From assembly GCA_030295235.1 (NCBI GenBank), contig AP026164.1, positions 2,474,114 through 2,538,113 on the forward strand: DNA of 64,000 nt, given 5' to 3'. The translations under genes were made by a program, and so were the position numbers. Origin of the DNA: Fistulifera solaris. Its lineage: Eukaryota; Bacillariophyta; Bacillariophyceae; Naviculales; Stauroneidaceae. A model generated the notes under the pieces. It was not told where the DNA came from. It did no database searches and saw nothing but the letters and a program-made list of their open reading frames with translations. Below, piece after piece: positions 9,081 through 49,713 of this stretch. Position 1 is the first letter of the stretch; the number at the start of each line of letters is the position of its first letter.

Positions 9081-11989
9081 TTACTTCTTTTTGCGCCCAC
9101 CTTTATTGCTTGTTGCTGCCGAAGTCGAAGCTAGCGCCTTTCCTTTACCGCGCCCTTTCGACTTGAACATCGCCTTGATTTTTTCTGCGTCTAATTCATC
9201 ATCGTCCCCTCCATCCTCGTCTTCCTCGTCGACTTGATCATCGTCGATAGCGTCTGGGTCTTTGCTTTCCATGGCAGCAGCTCCATCTCCAGACCCTCGC
9301 TTTCTTCCCTTTCCCATTCTTCCTTGTTCCGCAACAAGAGCCTGACTCGAATGAGCCGTCTGGTTGTAGAGGCGAGTAAAGCTTGCTTTTTTCTTGCTAC
9401 TCAAGTCGTTAAAAGTTGCTGCTTTACTGGAACTCAACATAAACTCGTCCAGTTTCTCAAACACATCATCTCGATCCAAACCATATTCATCCATAAAGTC
9501 AATAGCTGCTTGAGCATCGTCCGCTTGTAGCAACTGTAGAAGGCGTGTTCGCAACACTGGAAGATAAGATAATCGAGTTTCCGAGCCACCACCACTGATA
9601 CTATAGTTCAAGTGATGTTGAAGCTCTGACAGCAATCGATATTTCTTCCCTTTCGTACTGTTCCTTCCGAGCCACGACGTAAACTCGGGAAATCCAGGCA
9701 AAAAGCCACCATTTGGACCCGACGCATGAAATCCTGTTTTTACAATCAAACTAGAGCAAAGGGGCAGCAAGCTCCAGTTTTGACCGCCTCGTAATTGATT
9801 TTCCGCCAGATCATAATCGCTCAATGCCTCAGCAGCGTCCGACATTCGATGAAGAACCTCCAGTTGCGAAGCAGCGTTCTTGCGTTTGGCTTCGCCGAAA
9901 GGACCTTGTAGTACTTTCAAATAGTTTTGCTGTACAAGCAGGCCCGTAAAGCCATAATCAACAAAGAAAGCGTCATGTCTTCGGAAGAACGAGTCGCGTT
10001 CTTGCTCTGGCGTCGATCCGTTCAATCCCTGACGGCCTTCGAGCAGCTGTTTGGCAGCGTCAAACAGCGAAACGCGAAGAATATCATCTTTATTAATATC
10101 ATTTGCTCGCTCCTTCAAATCCTTGAACTTGAGGCTGTTGCCTTTTCGTGACCACATTTGCAAACAATTCAAGACCTGTCGAATATCGTTACCGCACGAT
10201 TCTGCCAAAGCTTCCGCGGCATTTTGTTCAACATTCAGTCCTTCTTGTTGTCCAACCTGCACTGCTCGATTCGCAATCACATTTTTGGTCGGACGTCGGT
10301 ACCTCAAGTCCAAGCAGTAGGGAATCAACGATTTGAGTTTTTGTGACTGACGATCGTTGCAAATACAAACGATGGGCACTTTGCTCTTCTTGATCATTTG
10401 AATCAACTCCGCCATCCCACTGCGATCACCAGCGCCCATTCCATCTACTTCGTCCATGATAATACACCGTTTCTTGGCCTGTGTCGTAAAGTCGATCGTC
10501 TGAGAACCTGTGATATCACCAAATACATTGGTTAACGCCTTTTGCTGCGAACATCGGATGCATTAAATTCCAGTACATCGCGACCAGCCTCTTTTGCTAC
10601 CAGAGTTGCCGTAGTGGTTTCTGTGCACGTGGAGCGATTTGTGTTAGACATGTTTTGCCATGGAACTGCCATAGAATCATAGCTGTTCGCACGCAACCAT
10701 ACGTACTTCCAATACCGGGAGGCCCCGATAACAGCGCCGCCTTCCAAGGACCATTTGGTGCCGAAAAAGTCTTGTTGCTGTTCTGAGTTGTGTTAAATAT
10801 ACGCTCCCAGCTATTCAACCATTGCGTTAACTTCTTGACCGCATCCTGATTCCCCAAAATCTCTCGAGCGGATGTGGGTTTGTACTTGTCGACCCATAAC
10901 ATGGACGAAGTATCGCCCAGGACAGGCGCGACTGCCATCGTGGTAGTATTGCTCGTCACAGACGTCATTGCTGGAGCGGCTTTGCGTCCGTATGAGTTCG
11001 CTTTGGCCGTCGCGGCGTACGGATTCGATGCTTTCTTTGCGTACGGATTGACCTTGGTTGCTGCCGTCGCAGTAGAATAAGGATTGGATGGAACCGATGG
11101 CGGCGCTGACACTAGCGTCGACGCCACGGCCGGTGCGACAACAGGACCGCACAAGTCGTGATAAGTTTGCAACAAACCATAAAACAGTTCCTCTCCTCGC
11201 ACAATGACAACACTTTTCAATTCCATCGCCTTTTTGTATTTACTTCCCTGTTGATAATCTCTTCCATCCTCTAATACATTTCCGACGACCAAATAATCTG
11301 TTTTACTCGACACGGCCGTGGTGACGCGTCCTCCAACGTTTTAACCAAATCTTGGGCCGCATCTCGTGATAGCTGTTCCAAAACACCCGAAAAGCAAAAC
11401 GTCAAGGGCACATTGTCGCGCATCAAACATTGGGTATGTTGGAGACTCGGAGGCGTCGTGCGACGTACCGTAGGTTGTTCGAGTTTGCGCGGTGACTTCT
11501 TGGTTGTCGATGTAGTAGTAGTAGCAGCGCGGACCGGCGAGGCAGCCTTCTTCGTCGTTTCCGTTCGCGGCGTTGCTTCCGACTTGATGGGTGTACGCGT
11601 ACGCATCGATCGTTGAGGCGATGCTACTTTTGCTGGAAGTGGTGACTTTATCGGTGTTGTCAGTTTTTGACGACAGCTGTTTTCACCGCAACAACTTCGG
11701 TGACTTCCTCTTCGCTGCTGCTGCTGCTACTGCTGCTACTGCTATCGATAAGAATCTCGCGTTTGGCTTTTTTTCGATGACGAGGATGAAGGTTCTTCGA
11801 TCTTCTTTGTCGTGGTTTTAGAAAGAAATCGTCTGCCGAAACATCCAGGCGTTCCGTCGACTTGCGTTTCCGATTTCTTTCATCTTTGTTGTTGTTTGCG
11901 TTGTTGTCGCTTTTGGGAACAGCGGCAGCCGGGGTTGCCGTTGCGGCTTTCTTCTTTGGTTGAAAGAAAGAACGAATATCCATAGGCAT
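9081..11989 (-). CDS. RFC1: Replication factor C large subunit (RFC1)
   Basis: RFC1 is the large subunit of the clamp loader that opens PCNA at primer ends. The start MPMDIRSFFQPKKK carries the PCNA-interacting N-terminus typical of RFC1. A Ser/Lys-rich linker and a BRCT domain follow (LTFCFSGVLEQ through KTDYLVVG, about 11410-11260), then the AAA+ module: LWVDKYKPTSAREILG, Walker A GPPGIGKTT, LEFNASDVRSK, Walker B IIMDEVDGM, a sensor region (VCICNDR) and the RFC1 C-domain. An 86-nt intron (10706-10621) splits the Walker A Lys codon. Three breaks lie at runs or doublets: A6 needed where A5 is read (11664-11668), G2 for G1 near 11325, and A5 for A4 (10540-10543). All are repaired by one base. 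The tail is Lys/Arg-rich. Confidence 0.95.
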
Positions 11990-20886: not shown

Positions 20887-21026
20887 TGTGAATGAAACGG
20901 GACGATAGACTTATAAGCTTCTTTTCTATACGAGCTCTTTTCTTTTCTATACGAGCATTAGAGCACTGGGTTATTCTGTATCTAGACTTCTTGACGTATT
21001 GCAACCGCAACAAAACAAAAAAAAAC

Positions 21027-23018
21027 ATGTCGGGAAGCAAGTCTTCGTTATCCTCGCTGCCGACGCGCCATAGACGCAAAGAAAAGGAGTGTCGCAGGAA
21101 ACGGTTCGTGACTGATTACTTTCACCCAGTCGGGGCAAGTTTTGAGAGACACTTTGTAGAGTCAATTCTGGTTTGCACCTCATCGTCGCAAATCGATATC
21201 GCTCGCTTTGTTGAGAATTACGAGTATTATTCCAGTCATTTATTTTCAAGCGAGCTACACTCGTCTGTCTTGATAAAGGAAAGATATCAGGAAGGATTGA
21301 CACAGAAAGCGAGCGACTTTGGAAACACAATACACGAAATGAGAGCTTCCAGTCCTCTCGGAACGATAGATGATATCGATTCTCATCCCAATACTCCTCA
21401 TTCGTATGTTGCGGGCGAAAGTGAAGATCGACTGCATCATGTGGCTTCATTATGGGGTCTCGCGGAACCGCGATTGCGTCGAAAACCCGTACGGAATTGG
21501 TTTGCGGATAGTGTGACGATGCATATGCACAGTGTCGGTGCTTTATCACGCCACGAACGGTTGGATGCGACGGGGACGTTGCATTATGTGACCATTCGAA
21601 GGAGACGGAGACGACCCAGAGCAGAAGATTTACCCACACCGCAATACGAAACCCTCACGGATCTCTTTCAGCCGCCAGCGGCAGTCGTCTCGCCTATCGA
21701 AGTTTCGGAAGAAGAAGAAATAGTAGTAGTAGTAGAAGAAGAAGATGTGATTGTCGGAGGATCGTTAGCAGCCGCCATGTTTGGGATTATCAAAGGCACT
21801 GTCGGGCCCGCTATCTTGTATTTACCCCACGGTGTCGTACAATCCGGATACGTGGTCGCCATTCCTTCGATTGTTCTGGCGACTATCTTGTATTTGTATT
21901 CCGCCAATACTTGTTTGTTGGAATGTTGGAACATCGAATCACGCAAACAACACGAAATGGCAACGGCCGTGGAAGAATTGTTGGCTCTCGTGTCCGAGGA
22001 ACGACCGGTAGCACCACCGAAACCGACACTCTTGACGTATCCGGAATTGGCACGACGGGCTTTGGGTCCTTATTCAATACTGACCGTCATGGGCATTGCG
22101 TTCTTTCAGTTGGGTGTCTGTTTGACGTATTTGATCTTTGTTCCACACAATCTAATGCAATTGACACACAATAGTCTTCCTCGGGAAGTTTGGGTATGGA
22201 CCATGGTGTTGGGGGAAATTCCCTTGGGTTGGTTGTCGGATATTCGGAGTTTGACGTGTACCAATATTTTGGCCACATTCTTGATTGCGTACGGACTGGT
22301 GGCCGTCTTAGCGTTGGCGATCCATCAAGGATGGGAGCAGGATCCTGACACGGACGAACGGCGATTTGTCTCACATTGGAAACAACTTCCACCGGTCACT
22401 GACGCTTGGTTCTTATTTGTGGGGACTTCCTTTTTATGATGGAAGGAGGCATTACATTGGTGGTGCCTTTACAGGAAGCTGTATCCAGCGCAGCAGATCG
22501 GAAACGGTTTCCTGCGGTCAATACGCACACAACATGGGGTATTGTGGTCTTTTACGTCTTGTTTGCGTGTATTTGTGCCGCTGGCTTGGGTGGTGAAGGG
22601 TTAAGCACCGCACTGACGGCGAGTTTACACGGTCATGTCGCGAACAGCGTCCAATTAGCGTATTCCGTAGCGGTCTTTTTTTTCGTTTCCGTTGCAAGCA
22701 TTTCCAGCCTTGCAAGTGATCTGCCGGGCTCTATTGGGGGAGCAGCCTTCTTTGTGGTGGCGCGGTGTGTTCACGACCGCCATTACTTTACTCTTGGGTG
22801 TGATTGCCACCATAGCAATTGATTATCTGGGGAATGTCGTGAGTCTGCTGGGAAGTATGTTTGGAATACCATTGGCCTTGGTATTTCCTCCCTTGATGCA
22901 CAATCGTTTGGTCGGCGACCGTGTCAAGATGAATTATGTGGTTGTGTGTTTCGGTCTGCTTGCTATGGGAGCAGCGTCTTATGCTACCGCGGCTTCCTGG
23001 AATGAACAAGGAGGTTAA
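21027..23018 (+). CDS. Amino acid transporter, AAAP/SLC38 type
   Basis: The N-terminal roughly 250 residues are hydrophilic, with an Arg-rich stretch and an acidic EEEEIVVVVEEED patch. The transporter follows, starting GGSLAAAMFGIIKGTVGPAI, the hallmark first helix of amino-acid/auxin permeases, then YPELARRALGP and about ten more hydrophobic segments, ending ASYATAASWNEQGG. These proteins carry neutral amino acids across the plasma or vacuolar membrane with H+ or Na+. Two frame breaks occur in T runs. T5 at 22431-22435 should be T6, joining GTSFFMMEGGITLVVPLQEA. The T8 at 22676-22683 must change by +2 or -1 to join FPLQAFPALQV. The start at 21027 follows an A-rich leader; the ORF extends upstream in frame, but 21027 is favoured by context. 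Confidence 0.8.
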
Positions 23019-24380: not shown

Positions 24381-27300
24381 ATGACGCGAAACGACGCCCA
24401 CCGGATGTTTCCTCTTTCCTCGCTTCTCTTGTTTCTTTTCATAGGCGGCTTGACTCGAGCACAAACAACTACAACTACAAACGCAATTAATGACTTTGCG
24501 GATTTCAATAGAATCTTTCAAGATGCGAAATTGCTGTTACCCGATGCCGATATTAGTACGAATGGACTCGATCTTAACATTCGTGAATTGATTTGCAGTC
24601 AAGTCGTCATTGACGACATGGCGGTCCTTTCGCCTTCTTCTACTGTTAATACTACCATGAAATTGCAAGTCGATGTGACATTTTCACTCACGTGTCAAGC
24701 GAATTATGCGTATTACTTTCCGCCCTTCTTTCGCGGGGATGGACGTGTCGCGGCCATGACACGCAGTAATCAATTTCAGACGCATTTAACCTTTCAACAC
24801 TCGTCAGACACTGTCGTCACCGTCGATCTGTGTCAAGCACAAGTGCAAATATACGATTTGGATTTTCGGGGTGGTTTGGTGGCACGATTGGTCGAAGTTG
24901 CCGAAGGGCCCGTGGCGAATTTATTGCAAAGCGAAATTCAAGATGCACTCTGTGAACAACTCAATACGAACGGTGGAGCGGCGCTTGAACAAATACTCAA
25001 TACATTTTTGCAGCGAGTCGATCCCTCGGCACCCATCTTGTTGGCACCGAATTTAGCCGAAGCGCAAGTCTTGTCGTCCAGAAAGGGCTTGTTTGATTTT
25101 CTCAAGTACGACTGGTTTGCGCGGGGCTTAGAGCAAGTCCAGCGATACTTGGGTGCTTCAGAAGGTGGTAGCTTGGGCATCAATTCCTTGTTGAGAAATC
25201 GTCTTTTGAACGATCAAGGCTTGTTGGTGGTAAATCTAAATGATGTCATGAAGAATACGACCATATTGTCATCGCACGGACGTTTGACAAAATCATCCAT
25301 CGTACTACAGAATTTGGAAATTCAAGGATTGGATAGTTTGACGCAATTGGATGCCTTGCAGGTGGTCAGCAATTACACGGTCCGTAATACGTTGCGGTGG
25401 GAAGCTTTGCAAGTTCGAATACAGGCGCGGGTACTAATGCAAGCATCGTCGCAAAACAATTCTCTATTTGTGATTGAGGAAGGTAAACCGCCCAAAATGG
25501 TCGAAGAAGATATCGTCATTGAAGCCGGCCTCAATGATTTGGTTATGAATTTGAATTTACTGTTCGCTACCGATGAATCGTTCTGGAAGAACATGCTTTT
25601 GGCCAACTTGCTCGATACGTCCACAGTCTACAATTGCTTTCTGCAATCGATTCGATTATGGAATGTTACACAATTCACCGCAACGGCAGGTTCAATTGTG
25701 AGACCCACTTTATCGGGATTTGTTGATGAAGGATTGGATCGAATCGCTTCGTCAACCGTGGAAGCCTTTTTGAATTTGTTGGAACCGACTTTTCAAGCCG
25801 CCTTGCCCAATTTGGCCCACACGTTATTGCGCGATTGGATCAATACCGATTTGTTGCCGAATTTGCGACAGGGTGTTCCATCGTGTCCGACGAGTGTGGC
25901 ATGGCCGACGCCGGTGGTGGACTTTCGTGATTTGTTGTTGGCGCCGGTGCAATCGCAAGCGTTGGGTGGGAGTGGCTCACAACCGTACGGTGATCTCGTG
26001 CAATATGCGTACGACGCTGTCACGAAGAAATTTGATCAAGTCGATGAAATGAATGATTTTTTAATTCGTCCCTTTACATCAAGTCAATCGGGTGTCGCGG
26101 GTACGCTCGCAATTTTTCAAGAGAAAGGAGGCCTGGTGGTAGTCGATCATAGCCTTTTCGATTTGTCGCTCAGCGATTTGAAAATTCGAAATTTGGATAC
26201 CATCCAGCACAATCCCATTCAAGTGTTGAATCCGACGAAAGATCCGACCGTACTTGCGAATGAAATTCAGCTTGGCAATGGTACAATGACAAATGTGTCA
26301 TCGAATGTGTCTGCATTAACGTTTGCCTTTCAAACGCAGTTTCGTTTAGGAGACTGGGTGCCACAACAACAAGTCGGATTTTCGATTACCATTCCAAAGG
26401 TGAAAGTCGATACATCGCTCAACTTGGCTATGAATTCCACTTTCGTGTCGAACTTCCCTCTAGGTCACGTATCGAAACTTGGATGTTGGATGAAATCGAT
26501 CGTCAACGAAAAGAAGGACCTGATCCAAGCCTTAAGCTTGGATATGACACCATGGCAGTGGCAGGCACAGTGTATGAACTGCTCGAGTGGCATTTTGTCG
26601 TCCGTACTGGAGAAGATGCAAACGTCGCGTATCCTCTCCGACCAGTGGCCTGCTTTGGTGACAGATATATTACAAAGTAATTGGATTGAAGATTGGCTGC
26701 AATTCAAAGTGGATTCAGCGACGTGTGCCTTAGTTCCAAACATCAGCACTGCGGTCAGGCCGACAGGTATTCCTGTGCTGTCCAATGATTCATTGGACAC
26801 TGCGTTGTTTACTGGTATCGTCTCGCTGTGGACCACGTTCCTCGTCGTGATGGAGCAACATGAAAATAATCAGCTCACCAATCATACTACCAATTCGTCT
26901 GGTGTAGACGGTATGAATCTTATTGATTTTACAGATTTGGGAAACTCTACTGGCTTGGGTAGTTTGGCCGACGAAGCATTACAACAAGGCCGGGCATATC
27001 TGTTGAACAAAGACGAAAGCACACAAGAATTGAAAATAAATGCCTTGATGCGTGATTGGCTCCTTTCTGGCGAGGATGAAAGCGGTGATTACGCACTGCG
27101 CGTCCCCAATATGGAACAAGTTGTTTTCCAGCAAGAAAATGGCTTGTTGTTGCGGATAGACTCTTTGGTGGTGCGTGGACTTGACACGTTTACGCAGCTT
27201 GATTTGCTGAAACCGGTCGGCCCGCAAACTATATCCAGCGCTTTGCAGATGCGAAACCTCTCATTGCGCGTTCAGGCAGTATTAGGTTACAGCAGTGGCC

Positions 27301-30300
27301 CTCAGCAAAATCTTACTTTTTCCGTTGAATTGGAAGATTTGGAAATCGAGTTGGATCTTTTTGTGGCTTTTCCTGTTGACTCGCTTGAGAAGATACCCTT
27401 GAGATCTGTTTTGCAACTAAAGAATCTCCTGCCATGTATTTTGTCTACCGCCAAAAGCGTGGACGTCCCCCGTTTCAATGCCAAAATTGGTACTTTATCG
27501 TCATTTCGAGTCGAGGGAATGCGCGAAAAAACCGACCAGGCAATGTTGGACTTAATCGAAGAGACACTTCGCGAGTACGAAGAAACGATCCTGAAGGGAA
27601 TACCGAAACTGGCCAGATCGACTATACGAAATCTTTTGTCGAACAAACTGTCGGACTTTATAGGCAACGCAGTTTGTCCACCATCCACGGCCTCGTCGAC
27701 GAACACGCCCTTTGTTGATTTGCGAGAGTTACTCCTTACGCCCGAAGTAAGTAAAGAAAATGGCGGGGCGGGAGATGCTCCGTATGGCAACATCTTTCCT
27801 TCAATCGCTAAATATATTGAAGACGAAATTCTCGCGACTGATCCCAAGTCGGGTGTACTAATGTTGAACAAGTTGATCGGCTCCTTTACTAAAAGTCGGT
27901 CCGGAACAAGTGGATCTCTGTTATGGTCTGGTGATTTGATGTCGACTAATACGAATGTTGACGCTGGAGGCCTTAACGCTCGTGTTCGTCTCCGTGTATA
28001 CGACGCTTTTATTCATCACCTTGATTCATTTAGTGACGAAAATATACAAATTCTGGAACCCGTCCGAAATGAACCTCATCAGATGAATAATTCGGCTAGT
28101 ATAGGCAGACGACAGCCTGTCGAAATGGGCGCAGGATTTGCCATGGAGTTCTTCAGTCCTGGTGGAACGAACATCAAAAACGACGTCAAGCTCAGTCTTT
28201 CGGCGGACGATGTTGAAATTTTATTCCGGATGCTGTTGAAGATTGTGGAGTCTTCGTTTTTAGATTTGCCTTTGGCGGCGATAGGAAATGTGGATTGCTG
28301 GCTAGCAACGATGGAAAACCCTAAACTCAATGCATTCGGCGTTTCCCAGTCCGCGACTGCTTTGGAGCTACTTGAGCTGAGTCTTCGCGTGTCGCAGCTT
28401 AGAATGAAAGCAACATGCATCTCGTGCAGCGGCCCGAAAATGGAAGAATTTTCGAAACTACTATCAGAAACAAGTGCCGTTGAAGATATGACTCGTGTTG
28501 GCAATCGTGTTTTGGGCTATCTCAAAGAAATCTTAGGAGGAAGCTATCTGCAGGTCACTTTAGATCGTATGATTGCTGAGGGCCACAGAAAGTGCCCTTA
28601 CGGATCTGATTATGGTCAACCTCCGCCTGTGTTTCAATCTTTACCCAAGCCTGATACATCAGAACCTATTACTCTTCTTGTGGCGCTGTTCTTATCAGGC
28701 TTCGCACTTATTACAGGTATCCTGGTTGTTCTTTGTTGCAGGCGTATGATTGTGAGAATGAGGCATCGAAAGTGGGTCCAAAGTTTAGCGGAGGAGCAGC
28801 TGTACCATGTTTGGTGCATTCAGACTGAACAAGATCAATTTGACGAAGAAGTAAACACCCTATCCAGCTCCTTGTATTTTTCAAAGGAGATTCCGAGATT
28901 CGTGCAATTTTTCATTCCAGTATCTATCGTGGGGAACATCGCTCTTTTCTTGAGCGGTCATTTGAGTTTAGGGGGCAGTGTCACGATTGTCCTACAACTG
29001 GCTGGCGAATCATACACTGCGGACAACTTCTTTGAATTCAGCATGGCGAAAAGTGCTATAGAAATTTGGAACGGTAAGTCGCCTTCGAGTTGTCGCTCAA
29101 GTTTCCTTCAAATCATTCGAATCTTCTCATGGCTTGTGTTGTATCGTTCAGCTGGTGGAAAAGAGCTTGCTATTATGATCTTGATCTTTTCAGGCATATG
29201 GCCTTACACAAAATGTGTTGCTACACTATTCTTATGGTTTGCACCACCTCGGATGTGCCCAGTGGATCGACGGGAGAATATTTTGCTGTGGCTCGATGCC
29301 TTGGCAAAGTGGAGTTTCATTGATATTTTCATCTTGGTAATGACCCTGGCTGCTTTCCGTGTTTCGGTTCAGAGCCCGGGCGTTGCATTTTACCCGAGTC
29401 CTTTTATTCTTTGGACCTGTTGGTGATTCCGAAATGGGGACTGTACGCCAATATGATCGCGCAACTTGTCTCGCAGATCAGTTCTCATTTCATCATCCAC
29501 TACCATCGAGTTGCCGTGTCGAGGACAAAGGAGAGAATAGCGACCAATGTTTGCACGCCCAAGACATCGATGGGTGATGCCGACGATAATACCAGTGGTG
29601 ATTTGAGTTTGTCGTCCGTAGATAGTGAAGAACGGCTATGCGAACATCGATTTGAGCGCCCTCACCGATCGGAAGATGAAAAGCTTGTCGCGCGCACTTA
29701 TGTTGACCCCATTGTGACTCTTTTAACGATATCGACAATTATTTTGGTCGTCGCTGGATGTTCCGTCCCCAGCTACGGCGTGGATATTTTGGGTATAGTG
29801 GGTTTGCTCGTGGAGTCTGGACAAGCTTTTGCGCAGGCTGTTTTTGATTATAACCTCTTCGACACCATACAACTGCTGTTTGCCCAAGCGTCATTCACTG
29901 GAAGGACTGCCGACTATATCGGGCTGGGATCTTTATCGATGATTTTACTTCTCACTGTACTCCTTGTACCTTTGATACAATCTACGCTATTGATGTACAT
30001 TTGGTTCAAACCCATGGCCGCTAAACAAAGGTATCAGTCGATGGTGGCGTTGGAAGTTTTGTCAGCTTGGCAGTATGCTGAGGTCTTTTGCTTTCCGTCA
30101 TGGTGGCCAGCTGGCAGCTCGGGCCCGTCTCCGAATACATGATCAATGCGTACTGCGGAAGTCTGCAAGGTTTCTTCTCGCAACTCGTTTTTTACGGTGT
30201 GGTCGAGGAACAGGATGCGCAATGCTTTCGTGTGAACACGACAATCGACACGGGATTTTTCGTTCTGGTGTCAGGAGCGGTATTACTAGCTCTTCTTAAC

Positions 30301-30483
30301 ACATTTGTGCTACATGCCGTCCGTCAGCAACAACGCGACAGAGCGGCGCGCTCTCCCTTCTGCGGTTCGACATTTGGATGCGGAGAGGACTTGGAACAAA
30401 TCCGGAAACAGATTCATCCCGTGCCTGTATTATTCACTGATTCGTTTCGGTGGATGCTGCGCCGCTCGGACGAGGACCAATAA
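24381..30483 (+). CDS. Giant lipid-transfer-like protein: repeated lumenal modules plus PqiA/LetA-like membrane domain
   Basis: The product has about 2,008 residues. It begins with a signal peptide (MFPLSSLLLFLFIGGLTRAQ). Residues 30-1400 are lumenal and hold a unit of about 600 residues present twice: GLDSLTQLDALQ near residue 316 matches GLDTFTQLDLLK near 932, and FRDLLLAP near 512 matches LRELLLTPE near 1110. Alternating beta-type strands with paired Cys (IRELICSQVVIDDM ... LTCQANYAYYF) resemble BPI/TULIP lipid-binding barrels. The last 500 residues have about eight TM helices in two halves, ending with WSFIDIFILVMTLAAF and WQYAEVFLLSVMVASWQL. These match the paired PqiA signature (WSMLEVFLLGVLVAL type). 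A 78-nt intron is at 29074-29151. T4 runs at 29402-29405 and 30086-30089 each need one more T. A role in lipid movement at a membrane is inferred. Confidence 0.75.
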
Positions 30484-30716: not shown

Positions 30717-32368
30717 ATGATGTTATTAACTATCTATTTGTTGCTCTCTGTCCTTGCTGAATGCCAAGGCTTCACTTCGCCTCTCAGTTGTCGGAGTCCT
30801 GCTTCCTTTGGAAAAAGTATTCAACAAGCGCATTGTCTCTTTCGAGCGCGGCAGGCGGCAACGAACACAAAGAGAATGCGTACTGGACTTCCTTAACGAG
30901 TCCTTTCCCCCCAGAAACGCCTTCGGGATTGCGCGGAGAAGCGATTATTCGTGCCTTGCAATCGGGACGAACCGTCGTGTTTCAACCTCCTCATAATCTC
31001 AGTTTCGTCGTACGAGGAAAGGGTGCCGAACACTTTTTGAATCAAAAATTATCACAGCGCATCTCGTTATCGAATGCATCATTTCATCGTGCCGCCATTT
31101 TGAATCGAAAGGGTCATGTACTCGATATTGTGGGCGTCGCCAGTGTAAATGCAACGTACGCGGTGGTATTTCCGACACATTTGAATCTCCAAGAACACTG
31201 GGGACCCACGATCTTTCCGCTGGATCAAGTGACGGTTGAAGCATCGCCATCCTCAGTTCAATGCATTTCCCTATTTTCGAGTCGACACTGGCATATTCAA
31301 AAGGTTTGGGAGCGATCGTTGCGACACGACAAACAGCCGAGTCGTTTGTCGAGGACCAAGACGGAATACTTTCACCAAACGAGTCAACAATCATCATCAT
31401 CATCCCCACAAGTACTCTTGACGACCCCCGGCAGTATCTGGTGGCCTTCTCATACGGTTGCTGCCTCGTACACGATGCTCGTGTCGAGTAGTGAGCCATT
31501 GCAGAAATGCTTGTTTCTCGATGATAGTGTGGCATCCAGTAACAACAATTCACCAATGTGGTTAGGAGAACGAGAATATCAAGCATTGCGTATCGTGTCC
31601 GGTCAACCTTCCTTTGTTGCGTCGGTTACGTTTCCAGCAGCTACCGTTTTGGAGTGGGAACTGTCTCCTCTCGTCGATTTTGAAAAGGGATGTTATTTGG
31701 GACAAGAGCGCGTTGCCGCACAATCCGGCAATCCGCTTCCGCAGTCACTTTATCAGATCGAATTTTTGGAAGAAGAAAACAATGATTTTGTTTCTCTGCA
31801 ACGTTGGCCGACAGGGAATGATACGGTTTACGTATTAGGAACTAATGAAGAATTGACTGCTGGGAAAATTGTTGAAATGGCGGAACCGGCCAGTCAAGGG
31901 ACACCAGCAATGCTAGGATTGGCCATGGTAAAACGAGCTAACTCGTTGTTGAGACGAATGGAGCAACTCGAATTGGACGTCCCTCGTCCGCAAACAAATG
32001 ACGACTCGTTGGTTGAAAGCAGCAGTGGTACCCGCGACAAACTCGATGGGCTCGAAGTCATTGTCAATGGTGAACTCATTGGTCGATTGAAAACGCTTCC
32101 CTTCAAACGGCTGGGACAAGATAAGTTTCTGATTGACGATACGGAACAAGCACCTGACGAGGCAGTGGTAGAAATGGAAAAATCGGAAGCTGTAGACGCT
32201 CGAAAGGAAACAGAGGAAATGAATAGCAGCGAATCCATGCCCAGTCCTACCGCCAACGTTGACAGTCAAGCGGAACGAGAACGAAAAGAAGCCAAAATGG
32301 AGCTTTTACGGCAACGTGCCGAAGAAGCACTGGCCCGAAGACAACAAAAGAAGTCGACTGCGACATAG
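30717..32368 (+). CDS. YgfZ/GcvT-like folate-binding protein (COG0354), plastid-type leader
   Basis: The diagnostic FEKGCYLGQERVAA motif (about 31678-31719) is that of the YgfZ/IBA57 family, tetrahydrofolate-binding relatives of GcvT that help build or repair Fe-S clusters. N-terminal family features also show (VVRGKGAEHFLNQKLS, AAILNRKGHVLD). The tail from about 32180 is a charged, Glu/Arg-rich predicted coiled region (EREREAKMELLRQRAEEAL type) that is not part of the bacterial fold. The start is placed at 30717, where a signal peptide (MMLLTIYLLLSVLAECQG) is followed by FTSPL, a plastid ASAFAP-like junction. It lies in a different frame from the main ORF, and one added A in the A5 run at 30812-30816 joins them. 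If the break is real, the start would be 30761 with no leader. Confidence 0.8.
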
Positions 32369-33371: not shown

Positions 33372-35318
33372 ATGACGCAAAATCACTGGATCGTCTGCGC
33401 TTGCATTCTTTTCGCATTGGCTTTCCCAAATGATGCCTTTGTTCCCAATCTTAACACAAAGTCGCCTTGTACTGGAAAAGTTACTCTCTATAGTTCTGGA
33501 GGAGGAGGATCGGCGGAAGAGAAACTGCGACAAGAATTGAAAGAGAATAATGACGCGATTGAAGTAAAAGATGAAATGCAGTACGCCCAAGCCGATGGAG
33601 CTTACTTAGAACGTCTCGATAGTGCCAATGAATCCATCGAGAAAGATGCGGTCACACAAACAACAGCGGATTCGTCGAAAACGCAGCAATCCGTTACATC
33701 TCATAGTTCATCTTCCGTCTTGGCCCAACAAATCGAACGCATGACCAAACCCCGAGCGTACCCTTTATTTCTGGCGGAAAAAGCAGCAGAATTCGTCGAA
33801 GCAACGTATAAAGATGTCGTGCACACATTTGCTGCGCCCGATTCGTATCGTGTGAGCAACAGCAATTCACAAAAAGAACGTATTGTCATCTTGGGCAGTG
33901 GTTGGGGTTCGATTTCGTTCTTAAAAGACATTGATACCGACTTGTACGATGTAACAGTCGTGTCGCCCCGCAATCATTTTGTCTTTACGCCCATGTTGGC
34001 AGGTGCGAGTGTCGGGACGGTCGAATTCCGGTCCATTTGCGAGCCGATTCGGGAAATCAATCTCAAGGCCAATTACTTGGAAGCCATCGCGACGGACATT
34101 GATACCGAAAAGAAAATTGTCAGTTGTGAATCTGTCTTTTGTGAAGGCAATTCGTGTGCCATTGAAGACTTTTCCATTCCCTACGATCGTCTCATTGTGA
34201 CTGTCGGAGCACAAACGAACACGTTTGGTATTCCCGGCGTTCGCGAACGCTGCAACTTTTGAAGCAAATTGAAGACGCTCGACGCATCCGAGCTTCGATT
34301 GTGAACTGCTTTGAGCGTGCGAATTTGCCCGGCTTGACAGATGAGGAACGTGAACAGAACTTGACCTTTGCGGTGATTGGAGCCGGACCGACGGGGATTG
34401 AGTTTGCGGCGGAGTTGCGTGACTTTGTCGAACAGGATGGTCCGAAGTACTATCCGCGTTTGCTGAAATATGTGCGCATCAAGATTATCGAGGCTTCTTC
34501 TACTGTATTGGCTCCGTTCGATAAGTCTTTGCAAGAAGAAGCTATCTTGCAAATGAACAAGAGCGTTTTAATCAAAGATCCCGAAGTACGTAACCTTTTG
34601 CCCGAGCGCTTCAAGTTGACCGAACTGTTACTCGACAGTTCTGTGAAAGAAGTTGGAGAAGACACCATCTTTTGAATGACGGCACGAAAGTACCGTACGG
34701 CATGGCAGTATGGGCGGCTGGAAACGGTCCTCTTCCCATAACATTGAGTTTGATTGACAAGATGGGTGAGGAACAGAAGAAACAGCAAGACGTAGCCCGT
34801 GGACGTCTCGCGATCGACCCGTGGATGCGTGTGATTGGTTCGGATGGACAAATTTTGGCGTTCGGTGATTGCTCCTGCATTACGGCCGGGCAGTTACCCG
34901 CAACGGCGCAAGTCGCTTCGCAACAGGGCGAGTATTTGGCCAACTTAATGAATCGCAAATACGAATTCAGTCCTCCCCGTTCGGAGGATGGTATCTTCCC
35001 ACCCCGAAGAAAGACCCCGTACGCACCGAATCGTCCTTCTCTGATGCGATTGCCAGTTTTGCCATCAACAACAGCGAATACGCAAAACCGTTTCAGTTTT
35101 TGAATTTGGGTATCTTGGCGTACACGGGCGGCGGCTCGGCCTTGGCACAAGTGACTCCTGCCCCGAATGCGGAGAGTATCAAAGGCACCGGCAAGATTGG
35201 GAATGCCGTCTGGCGAAGTGTGTATCTGAGCAAACAAGTATCGTGGAGAAACCGATTGTTGGTTTTGAACGACTGGACGAAACGACAGCTGTTTGGTCGG
35301 GATGTAACGCGGATTTAG
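33372..35318 (+). CDS. Type II NAD(P)H dehydrogenase, plastid-type leader
   Basis: NDH-2 enzymes are single-subunit flavoproteins that pass electrons from NAD(P)H to quinone without pumping protons. The leader (VCACILFALAFPNDA then FVPNL) is a clear signal peptide plus ASAFAP-like site, so plastoquinone in the thylakoid is the likely acceptor; this is an inference. The first dinucleotide fold has RIVILGSGWGSISFLK, with NHFVFTPMLAGASVGTVEFR next. The second has FAVIGAGPTGIEFAAEL, then VWAAGNGP, ILAFGDCS and a membrane-binding C-terminus with LNLGILAYTGGGSALAQ. Three breaks are each repaired by one base: T4 at 34257-34260 (LKQIEDARR follows), T4 at 34670-34673 (FLNDGTKVPYG) and C4 at 35002-35005. 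Typical family length is 500-640; this is about 649. Confidence 0.9.
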
Positions 35319-47465: not shown

Positions 47466-49713
47466 ATGAGGACCAATCTGATTTTCTTTACTTGTATATT
47501 CCCATTGTGTCAATGTTTTGTTATTCGCAGCAACAGTCATGCTTTTCGACAACAAATTCCTTTGATATTGACAACACCGGCTATGAGTTCTTTTGTCTTC
47601 TGTCGATGACTAGTTCTGGTGTAACAACCACCAAGAAACAGCGTCCCCGTCGGAAACCTGCCGCTACAAAAGTCAAGTCTACAGCAATCAACAAGGAGTT
47701 AAAAACATGGAGAGTATTCGGCATCGAAGTGCATCCTGATCGCCTAGCAGAAATTCAAAACGATCATTCTAAAAGTTCCTCCGACACGCCTCGTTCAGTC
47801 AGTCAGCAATACGTCAACGGCGCCGTTTTAGAGTCGTTACTGATGAAGTTTTCGGAAAAGAGTAGCAGCAACTCTACAAGTACAGCTGACACATCTCCAG
47901 CTGTTCGTCTGGAGCAATTTGGTATCGACAATGTGCGGGTCGTTCGAAGATCTTTGGATGCACGTGATAAACGACGCGTCGACGGAGGTCACGGTCCTCG
48001 CTTCGGCTATGTATTAGATTTTGATGTTCTACCGGGCAGTAAACTGCAGGTCAAGGAGCAGCCGGGTCGCATCGAATGTCTGACGTTAAAAACGAATGAT
48101 GCCAAGTTGACTGGCAAGAATCAAACTTCTTCTTCTAGCGATTTATCGAAAAAGCGAGTCATTATAGTAGGATCAGGTCCAGCTGGACTGTTTTGTGCAT
48201 TGCAATTGACCCGCGCCGGAGTTCACGTCACTGTATTGGAGCGCGGACAACCGGTCGAATCCAGAGGCAAGGATATTGGTGCCTTGATGCACCGACGTTC
48301 GTTGGATGCGGAATCCAATTTTTGTTTCGGAGAGGGAGGAGCGGGGACATGGAGTGATGGAAAACTCACTACACGGATCGGTCGGAACTCAGATGCTGTG
48401 CGCTTTGTTTTAGACACGTTTGTCGAATATGGTGCACCGGAGAAAATATTAGTAGAAGGAGCACCACACTTGGGGACCGACAATTTGGTACGACTGCTGC
48501 GCAATATGCGAATGGATATACGTCGCTTGGGAGGGGATATTCGGTTCGGAACGAAAGTGACGAAATTGATTATCGCAGATGGAATAACAAAAGGTGTTGA
48601 ATTCGTGACGCAAGAAGCAACGGAACGTAGTGTCGATGGCAAAGCTGTTACATCCGATGGAGGAGAACACGGGCAAATTTTTGGAAACGCTGTTGTACTT
48701 GCAACAGGGCATTCAGCCAGGGATATTTATGAGCAGTTACATGCTAGTGGGGTCAAATTGGAACCCAAGGGATTTGCTGTGGGGTTTCGAATCGAGCATC
48801 CTCAAGCGGTAATAAATAAAATCCAATACGGACAAGAATGGGGTCCTACAGTTGTGACTGGCAAAAGCTCACAGATGAACTCAATCAGAAGTACTTTAAT
48901 AACGCTCCTCCTCCTTCATATGAACGAATATCACACCGCGGAAACTTGCCTGTTCCTTCTTACCAGCTTGCAACGGATGAAGGCTTCGATGGAATCCAAA
49001 AACGAGGTGTTTATTCGTTCTGTATGTGCCCTGGTGGTACAGTGGTGTTAGCATCGACCGATCCGGATGAGGTTTGTGTGAACGGCATGAGCTTTAGCCG
49101 TAGAGACTCGATTTGGGCAAACAGTGCCCTCGTAGTCACCGTCGCTAGCAACGATACGATTCTGGACCCTTATCGAGAAGAGCACGGTGTTTTAGCCGGC
49201 GTCGCATTTCAAAGAGACATGGAGCGACGTGCATCTGTTATGGGCGGTGGAAATCTGACTGTTCCAGTCCAGCGCGTCACAGATTTTCTCGCAGGTCGAC
49301 CATCAACCTCAGCTCCGTCCTCCTCGTATCGCCTTGGTGTCAAGCCAGCGGCTTGCCATGAAATCTATCCACAGCCACTTGTTTCGGCTCTTCGCTATGC
49401 GCTTACACAACATTTTGAGAAATACATGCCTGGCTATGTATGTGAAGATGCTCTTTGCACGCCGTTGAAACTAGAACGTCAAGTCCAGTTCGTATTTCAC
49501 GTGATGACGAGACACTGCAGGCCATCGGTACAGAAGATCTCTTTCCGGTTGGTGAAGGAGCTGGTACGTAAAAGCAGTTTGTACAAATTATCACTTTGAA
49601 AACGACCCTTTCCTTACTTTCAAACTACAGGTTTTGCTGGAGGAATAGTCAGCGCCGCTGTCGATGGACTCGTGGTGGCGACTGCCTTACATAAGAAGCT
49701 GTCCGGAGTCTGA
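47466..49713 (+). CDS. FAD-dependent dehydrogenase of COG2509 type, probable plastid leader
   Basis: It has a GSGPAGLFCALQLTRAGVHV FAD-binding fold, then LERGQPVESRGKD, a NFCFGEGGAGTWSDGKL segment, VVLATGHSARDIYE and GFAVGFRIEHPQ, all typical of the COG2509 flavoproteins, whose reaction is not established. The C-terminal part reads YSFCMCPGG, EVCVNGMSFSRR and GVKPAACHEIYP. A 67-nt intron (49564-49630) lies inside the final FAD motif, GEGAGFAGGIVSAAVDG. The start is set at 47466 because MRTNLIFFTCIFPLCQC then FVIRSN looks like a plastid leader. This needs one more T in the run 47591-47594; otherwise the start is 47492. Other one-base joins are G4 at 48840-48843 and T3 at 49454-49456. Confidence 0.8.

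Follow-up and report, generated by a model that had tools for sequence, protein, structure and literature searches.

Proteins in which CETP/BPI domains are followed by a C-terminal PqiA domain have been described from protists and amoebae, with the suggestion that both parts act on a shared ligand, and the usual number of barrels in CETP/BPI proteins is given as two (Wong and Levine 2017; PMC5507252). Here we describe a gene of the diatom Fistulifera solaris in which this kind of fusion appears to carry a longer, repeated array. The gene lies at 24381..30483 on the + strand of a 64,000-nucleotide stretch (GenBank assembly GCA_030295235.1, contig AP026164.1, positions 2,474,114 to 2,538,113), the whole of which we call the window and to which coordinates refer; features are on the + strand unless stated otherwise. 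Two exons and two apparent one-base frame breaks are delimited by open reading frames, by homologues P0005, P0006, and P0007, and by a second copy on contig C3: a first piece of 1681 residues is encoded by 24381-29426, followed in two further frames by 29411-30142 and 30088-30483. In a protein search the first piece is 35% identical to P0005 (2027 residues) over 98% of its length. Sequence and predicted structure together support an order of parts in which a BPI-type N module precedes repeated units and a LetA-type membrane part.

Architecture of the predicted protein

The chain begins with a signal-peptide-like region (24381..24461; residues 1-27), of which residues 9-27 form a hydrophobic stretch with a mean hydropathy of 1.59. 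The N module, a putative BPI-type N-terminal TULIP barrel, follows at 24474..25100 (residues 32-240). Next come unit 1, the membrane-distal one (25101..26840, residues 241-820; halves a1, ~25101-25930, and b1, ~25930-26840), and unit 2, of a membrane-proximal type (26946..28640, residues 856-1420; halves a2 and b2), both delimited by hmmsearch and the second typed by its position in a tree. The initial annotation had reported a 600-residue unit present twice, and this duplication is borne out by the match of residues 248-632 to 865-1242 (28% identity, E = 1e-26); by profile it reaches ~241-820 versus 856-1420, with a fitting period of ~615. Beyond that annotation, the BPI-like module at 32-240 is separate from the units, and the units are duplicated internally as well: half a matches half b with an hhalign probability of 96.8-97.9% (E = 2e-10 to 5e-13; 2.2e-10 in unit 1). 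The corresponding probability is 100% for a1 with a2 and for b1 with b2.

A hydrophobic helix at the junction of the units (26793..26849; residues 805-823; mean hydropathy 1.65; helical in predicted structure model A) stands, relative to unit 1, where the transmembrane helix TM1 stands relative to unit 2. Possible explanations are a remnant of TM1 that was duplicated together with the unit and a hairpin that touches the membrane. A membrane span between the units is not favored, as both hold family-conserved cysteines and N-glycosylation sequons.

The TULIP assignment is best supported for the N module. The family profile matches BPI itself (E = 1.1e-5 to 2e-4), and comparison by profile and by predicted structure places the N module closest to BPI and LBP. 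The predicted N domain has a TULIP fold, and the HMMER alignment pairs two cysteines of BPI with cysteines conserved in the family, Cys151 and Cys191 in the window; in BPI these two form the disulfide. Against a cut-off of 28.8 bits, the Pfam family PF01273 scores 30.0 in P0046, above it, and 24.9 in P0056 and 22.5 in P0005, below it; no match appears in the window, P0006, or P0007 at E<=1, nor in P0013 or P0103 at E<=0.1, and a precomputed match exists for 2 of 145 protein identifiers (P0046 and P0056). A PF01273 search of the F. solaris genome returned 0 matches, but its control was silent as well and the search is hence uninformative. The units appear TULIP-like from the order in which strands and helices are predicted, and from alignment of the N module plus the next domain, half a, with LBP and CETP over 278-282 residues of predicted structure. 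Unit 1 consists of strands and a long helix in model A, and half b, homologous to half a, has a similar strand-helix order there and in the model of homologue P0021, in which half b of the membrane-proximal type was modelled instead of the window's own b2. Matches of the membrane part and of the N module take up the fold-comparison lists, with no separate match for half b. Halves a and b may also be lipid-binding TULIP barrels. The initial annotation had called the units BPI/TULIP-like, and TULIP-like barrels are indeed found in the predicted structures, foremost in the N module, with half b left short of an independent match.

The array is joined to the membrane part by TM1 (28674..28730; residues ~1432-1450; mean hydropathy 2.7), which is followed by the basic stretch RRMIVRMRHRKW. 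TM1 and the first PqiA/LetA-type half together span 28641..29402, intron included; this half scores 290 bits with the TMa profile and 27.8 bits with PF04403 at residues 1590-1662, above the cut-off of 23.8. The second half (29624..30309), read in two frames, scores 198 and 118 bits with the TMb profile, and its PF04403 score of 17.0 bits, from a piece cut by a frame break, falls below the cut-off. Of the PqiA signatures claimed for both halves, the first is thus matched above the cut-off and the second below it; P0005, P0006, P0007, P0046, P0056, P0013, and P0103 each hold two PqiA stretches totalling 43-50 bits. In the model of P0021, TM1 precedes two four-helix halves, and the LetA fold, with its two such halves, is matched across both. 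PqiA/LetA identity of the membrane part is thus supported by profile matches and predicted structure. The chain ends in a probably cytosolic tail (30310..30483) with the motif PVLFTDSFRW, an FTDxFRW-like form of which is present in 51 of the 68 homologues that we treated as complete.

Unit number across the family

Three protein searches, each scoring ~8000 candidates that shared most words, gave 7, 148 (best 120 of 148 used), and 24 proteins, or 145 different identifiers. The minority of rows bearing a readable organism name are all from diatoms (Amphora, Nitzschia, Cylindrotheca, Pseudo-nitzschia, Thalassiosira, Cyclostephanos, Pseudictyota, Grammatophora, and Bacillariaceae). Units were counted in the 84 proteins, window included, that have the N module and the first PqiA half: 49 contain one full unit, 33 contain two (P0125 in pieces), and P0103 contains three. 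P0144, a distant relative consisting of N, half a, and PqiA, is the only one of the 84 without a full-length unit. P0102, whose start is cut, retains the end of one unit followed by two complete ones, hence at least three. The second PqiA half is kept in 47/49 one-unit and 27/32 two-unit proteins, a count in which the window was entered as its first piece only and so scored as a miss.

In a midpoint-rooted FastTree phylogeny of 118 units, one clade (support 0.98) unites all 34 last units of multi-unit proteins with 46 of the 49 single units; the 34 first units all fall outside it, together with the middle unit of P0103 and three single units. The membrane-proximal unit is therefore a distinct type. 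Because one- and two-unit proteins both occur in the Thalassiosira/Cyclostephanos group (P0095; P0126) and in the Nitzschia group (P0071; P0084), the distal unit probably predates the split of these groups. The gene model of the two-unit protein P0126 (Cyclostephanos tholiformis) also carries a precomputed PF03724 (DUF306) match, perhaps from a fused neighbor.

Soluble arrays lacking PqiA (P0136-P0139, 1297-1380 amino acids) were considered as a second architecture and not accepted: three of the four end near unit position 406 and many ~860-residue proteins begin near 405, so that they look like halves of intron-split gene models. P0139 has no PqiA part and ends elsewhere than the shared intron position, and may be a truncated model or a real soluble form. 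An ASAFAP-like motif, the plastid-targeting motif, was found by one regular expression in none of the 68 homologues taken as complete.

Gene model and genomic context

The coordinates and reading of the gene given in the initial annotation agree with the open reading frames and homologues, and the observation as a whole is confirmed, save that an intron had been left in the reading frame. This 78-nucleotide GT-AG intron (29074..29151), read from the sequence, is in frame and free of stops, and encodes residues absent from P0005; its removal gives the reading SAIEIWNAGGKELA, which matches P0005. Across the first apparent frame break P0005 is unbroken, and it stops a few residues beyond the second; P0006 and P0007 extend as far as the C-terminal tail.

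The two breaks raise the question of whether the window copy is a decaying pseudogene, which would make ours a finding about a dead gene. Both lie at T runs, at 29388 and 30085. Contig C55 (locus L049, 36987 bases), which matches window positions 26873-30483 at 99.6% identity over 3611 bp, the last 3.6 kb of the gene, shares break 1, in line with decay; the C3 copy lacks it. C55 has more frame changes than the window gene and probably represents this locus a second time, as a redundant contig with less polishing. The T run at break 2 differs in length in all three contigs that hold it, being shortest in C55 and longest in C3, and break 2 thus looks like homopolymer noise; break 1 could likewise be noise, or else genuine damage to the window copy. 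The C3 copy (locus L009) has an open frame of 2072 residues and is 91.0% identical to the window gene over 6098 bp, with only six gaps: one of 6 bases, one of 3 bases, and four of 1 base at short runs. So few gaps at this divergence suggest that the reading frame has been under constraint, and we regard decay as very unlikely. Two of the four 1-base gaps are apparent in each copy, at different places, and the ~100 residues between the two in the C3 copy match the family in another frame. A programmed frameshift is rejected: the breaks lie at T runs, one of variable length, and in the C3 copy the frame is interrupted at other places, by a pair of one-base gaps that compensate each other.

A genome search with P0005 recovered, besides the window, C3, and the C55 duplicate, a pair of one-unit genes on C21/C22 (88% identical), a more distant one-unit pair on C9/C10 (88%), and a strongly diverged pair closer to the start of C21/C22 (90%). 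Within each of the four pairs (window/L009, L014/L016, L047/L048, and L015/L050) the DNA differs by 9-12%, as if the genome were of hybrid origin with two subgenomes. PqiA-type matches without N module or unit lie on C40, C41, C25, and C26. The one on C40 (L010, 7736-9712) is a separate protein of ~660 amino acids in which no TULIP part was found, and P0145 resembles it by eye.

Near the gene, 30761-32368 encodes a neighbor resembling a folate-binding IBA57/YgfZ-type protein, with no Pfam match at E<=0.001 and a KGCYLGQE motif that we take to be a sign of that type. Elsewhere in the window are genes for an amino acid transporter (20892-22436; PF01490), a pyridine nucleotide oxidoreductase (33372-34259; PF07992), the C-terminal part of RFC1 (9084-10457, minus strand; PF08519), and an FAD-dependent oxidoreductase (47492-49048; PF01266).

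Proposed function and relation to known systems

We consider it probable that the protein transports lipids as a single chain, either in the endomembrane system or at the cell surface, in the manner of LetAB or PqiAB but with an array of TULIP domains instead of an MCE tunnel. Behind the signal-peptide-like start, the N barrel and two a-b units would make five barrels in series, projecting into the lumen or outside the cell and held by one anchoring helix to the two-half LetA-like module. Each domain would hold a lipid, and the LetA-like module would exchange lipid between the last barrel and the bilayer. Along the array, lipid would be handed from barrel to barrel or carried on a swinging arm, toward a distant acceptor or away from it. 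The number of units (one, two, or three) would set the reach. Pfam detected no ATPase in the pieces scanned, and transport may therefore be passive, or driven by a proton gradient or by a partner; the energy source of PqiA is likewise stated as an open question in PMC10897342.

Several observations weigh against this proposal. The first piece alone matches no Pfam TULIP family at E<=1 and no solved TULIP by phmmer, and the N module has no detectable profile similarity to halves a or b (hhalign probability <3%). The LBP and CETP superpositions have a root-mean-square deviation of ~21 Å, leaving the N/a arrangement unproven, and model A, with a predicted TM-score (pTM) of 0.50, does not fix the relative placing of the barrels. 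Singly, the LetA halves are weak profile matches (independent E-values of 3.6 and 0.071). LetA and PqiA have Zn-ribbon CxxC pairs in each half; among 140 homologues with a first-half match, truncated proteins included, the membrane part has no CxxC in 124, one in 14, and two in 2 (P0144 and P0145). The membrane module is thus LetA-like in fold and a divergent branch as regards CxxC.

The closeness of the N module to BPI and LBP would also suit a membrane-anchored receptor or defence protein whose barrels bind bacterial or environmental lipids resembling lipopolysaccharide (LPS), with the PqiA part as anchor or signalling module. A plant LBP/BPI protein is reported to bind LPS, and Wong and Levine call the PqiA domain an anchor (PMC5507252). 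A single helix would be enough for anchoring, yet nearly all one-unit and most two-unit proteins keep the second half and an entire LetA-like fold is predicted; we find this explanation unlikely. A cell-surface importer, whose array gathers environmental lipids or sterols and whose PqiA part feeds them inward, draws on the many hydrophobic ligands that TULIPs carry (PMC5507252) and on the signal-peptide-like start and TM1 with its basic stretch, which would put the array on the lumenal or outer side. It amounts to the transporter proposal with its direction fixed, and direction is not readable from sequence; as a separate account we think it quite unlikely.

Within the transporter reading, the one, two, or three unit copies suggest a built-in lipid-transport arm of adjustable length. 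More tentatively, and with some doubt, we speculate that diatoms possess length-graded conduits in which a LetA-like module carries three, five, or seven TULIP barrels that together make an unbroken path. The membrane-proximal unit would be a constant adaptor, the distal units would be added extensions, and the whole would bridge one particular gap, for example between plasma membrane and frustule coat or between internal membranes. A six-frame genome search for MCE/MlaD (PF02470) gave 0 matches, with 4 of 14 controls recovered, and introns or divergence could hide one; the initial annotation's idea of a replaced MCE tunnel fits this lack of a match, which does not prove it. The new architecture claimed there stands in part: the TULIP-PqiA fusion had been noted in 2017, and among the literature matches listed is mentioned only in PMC5507252, where the word "diatom" is absent; PqiA does not occur in PMC6791001. 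Those matches included no account of a PqiA domain that bears more than two barrels, or of this family in diatoms. The kind of fusion is thus known, and the length-variable array of one to three units looks new as far as the literature was searched. The family points to lipid handling in diatoms for which no study was found among the same matches, and its proteins, differing chiefly in the number of barrel units on the same membrane module, offer a natural test of lipid-arm function. They also join the bacterial LetA/PqiA transport idea and eukaryotic CETP/BPI carriers in one chain, where the two can be studied together.

Among known systems, the E. coli LetA/LetB (9n8w) and PqiA/PqiB/PqiC assemblies share with the diatom protein a two-half PqiA module and an arm of repeated, probably lipid-handling domains, but the diatom arm would be built of TULIP-type domains in the same chain, whereas the E. 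coli arm is a separate hexameric MCE protein. LetB is a hexamer of this kind. So is PqiB (PMC10897342). The diatom protein differs further from E. coli LetA and PqiA in mostly lacking CxxC, in its extra TM1, and in being a predicted eukaryotic secretory protein. BPI, LBP, and CETP share the N-terminal barrel with its two aligned cysteines; the diatom array has at least three domains rather than two and is membrane-tethered. The protist and amoeba CETP/BPI-PqiA proteins are alike in placing secreted-side TULIPs before a multi-spanning PqiA domain in one chain proposed to handle one lipid, and the family of the window differs from them in its N + n x (a,b) array, with n = 1-3, and in its distinct membrane-proximal unit type.
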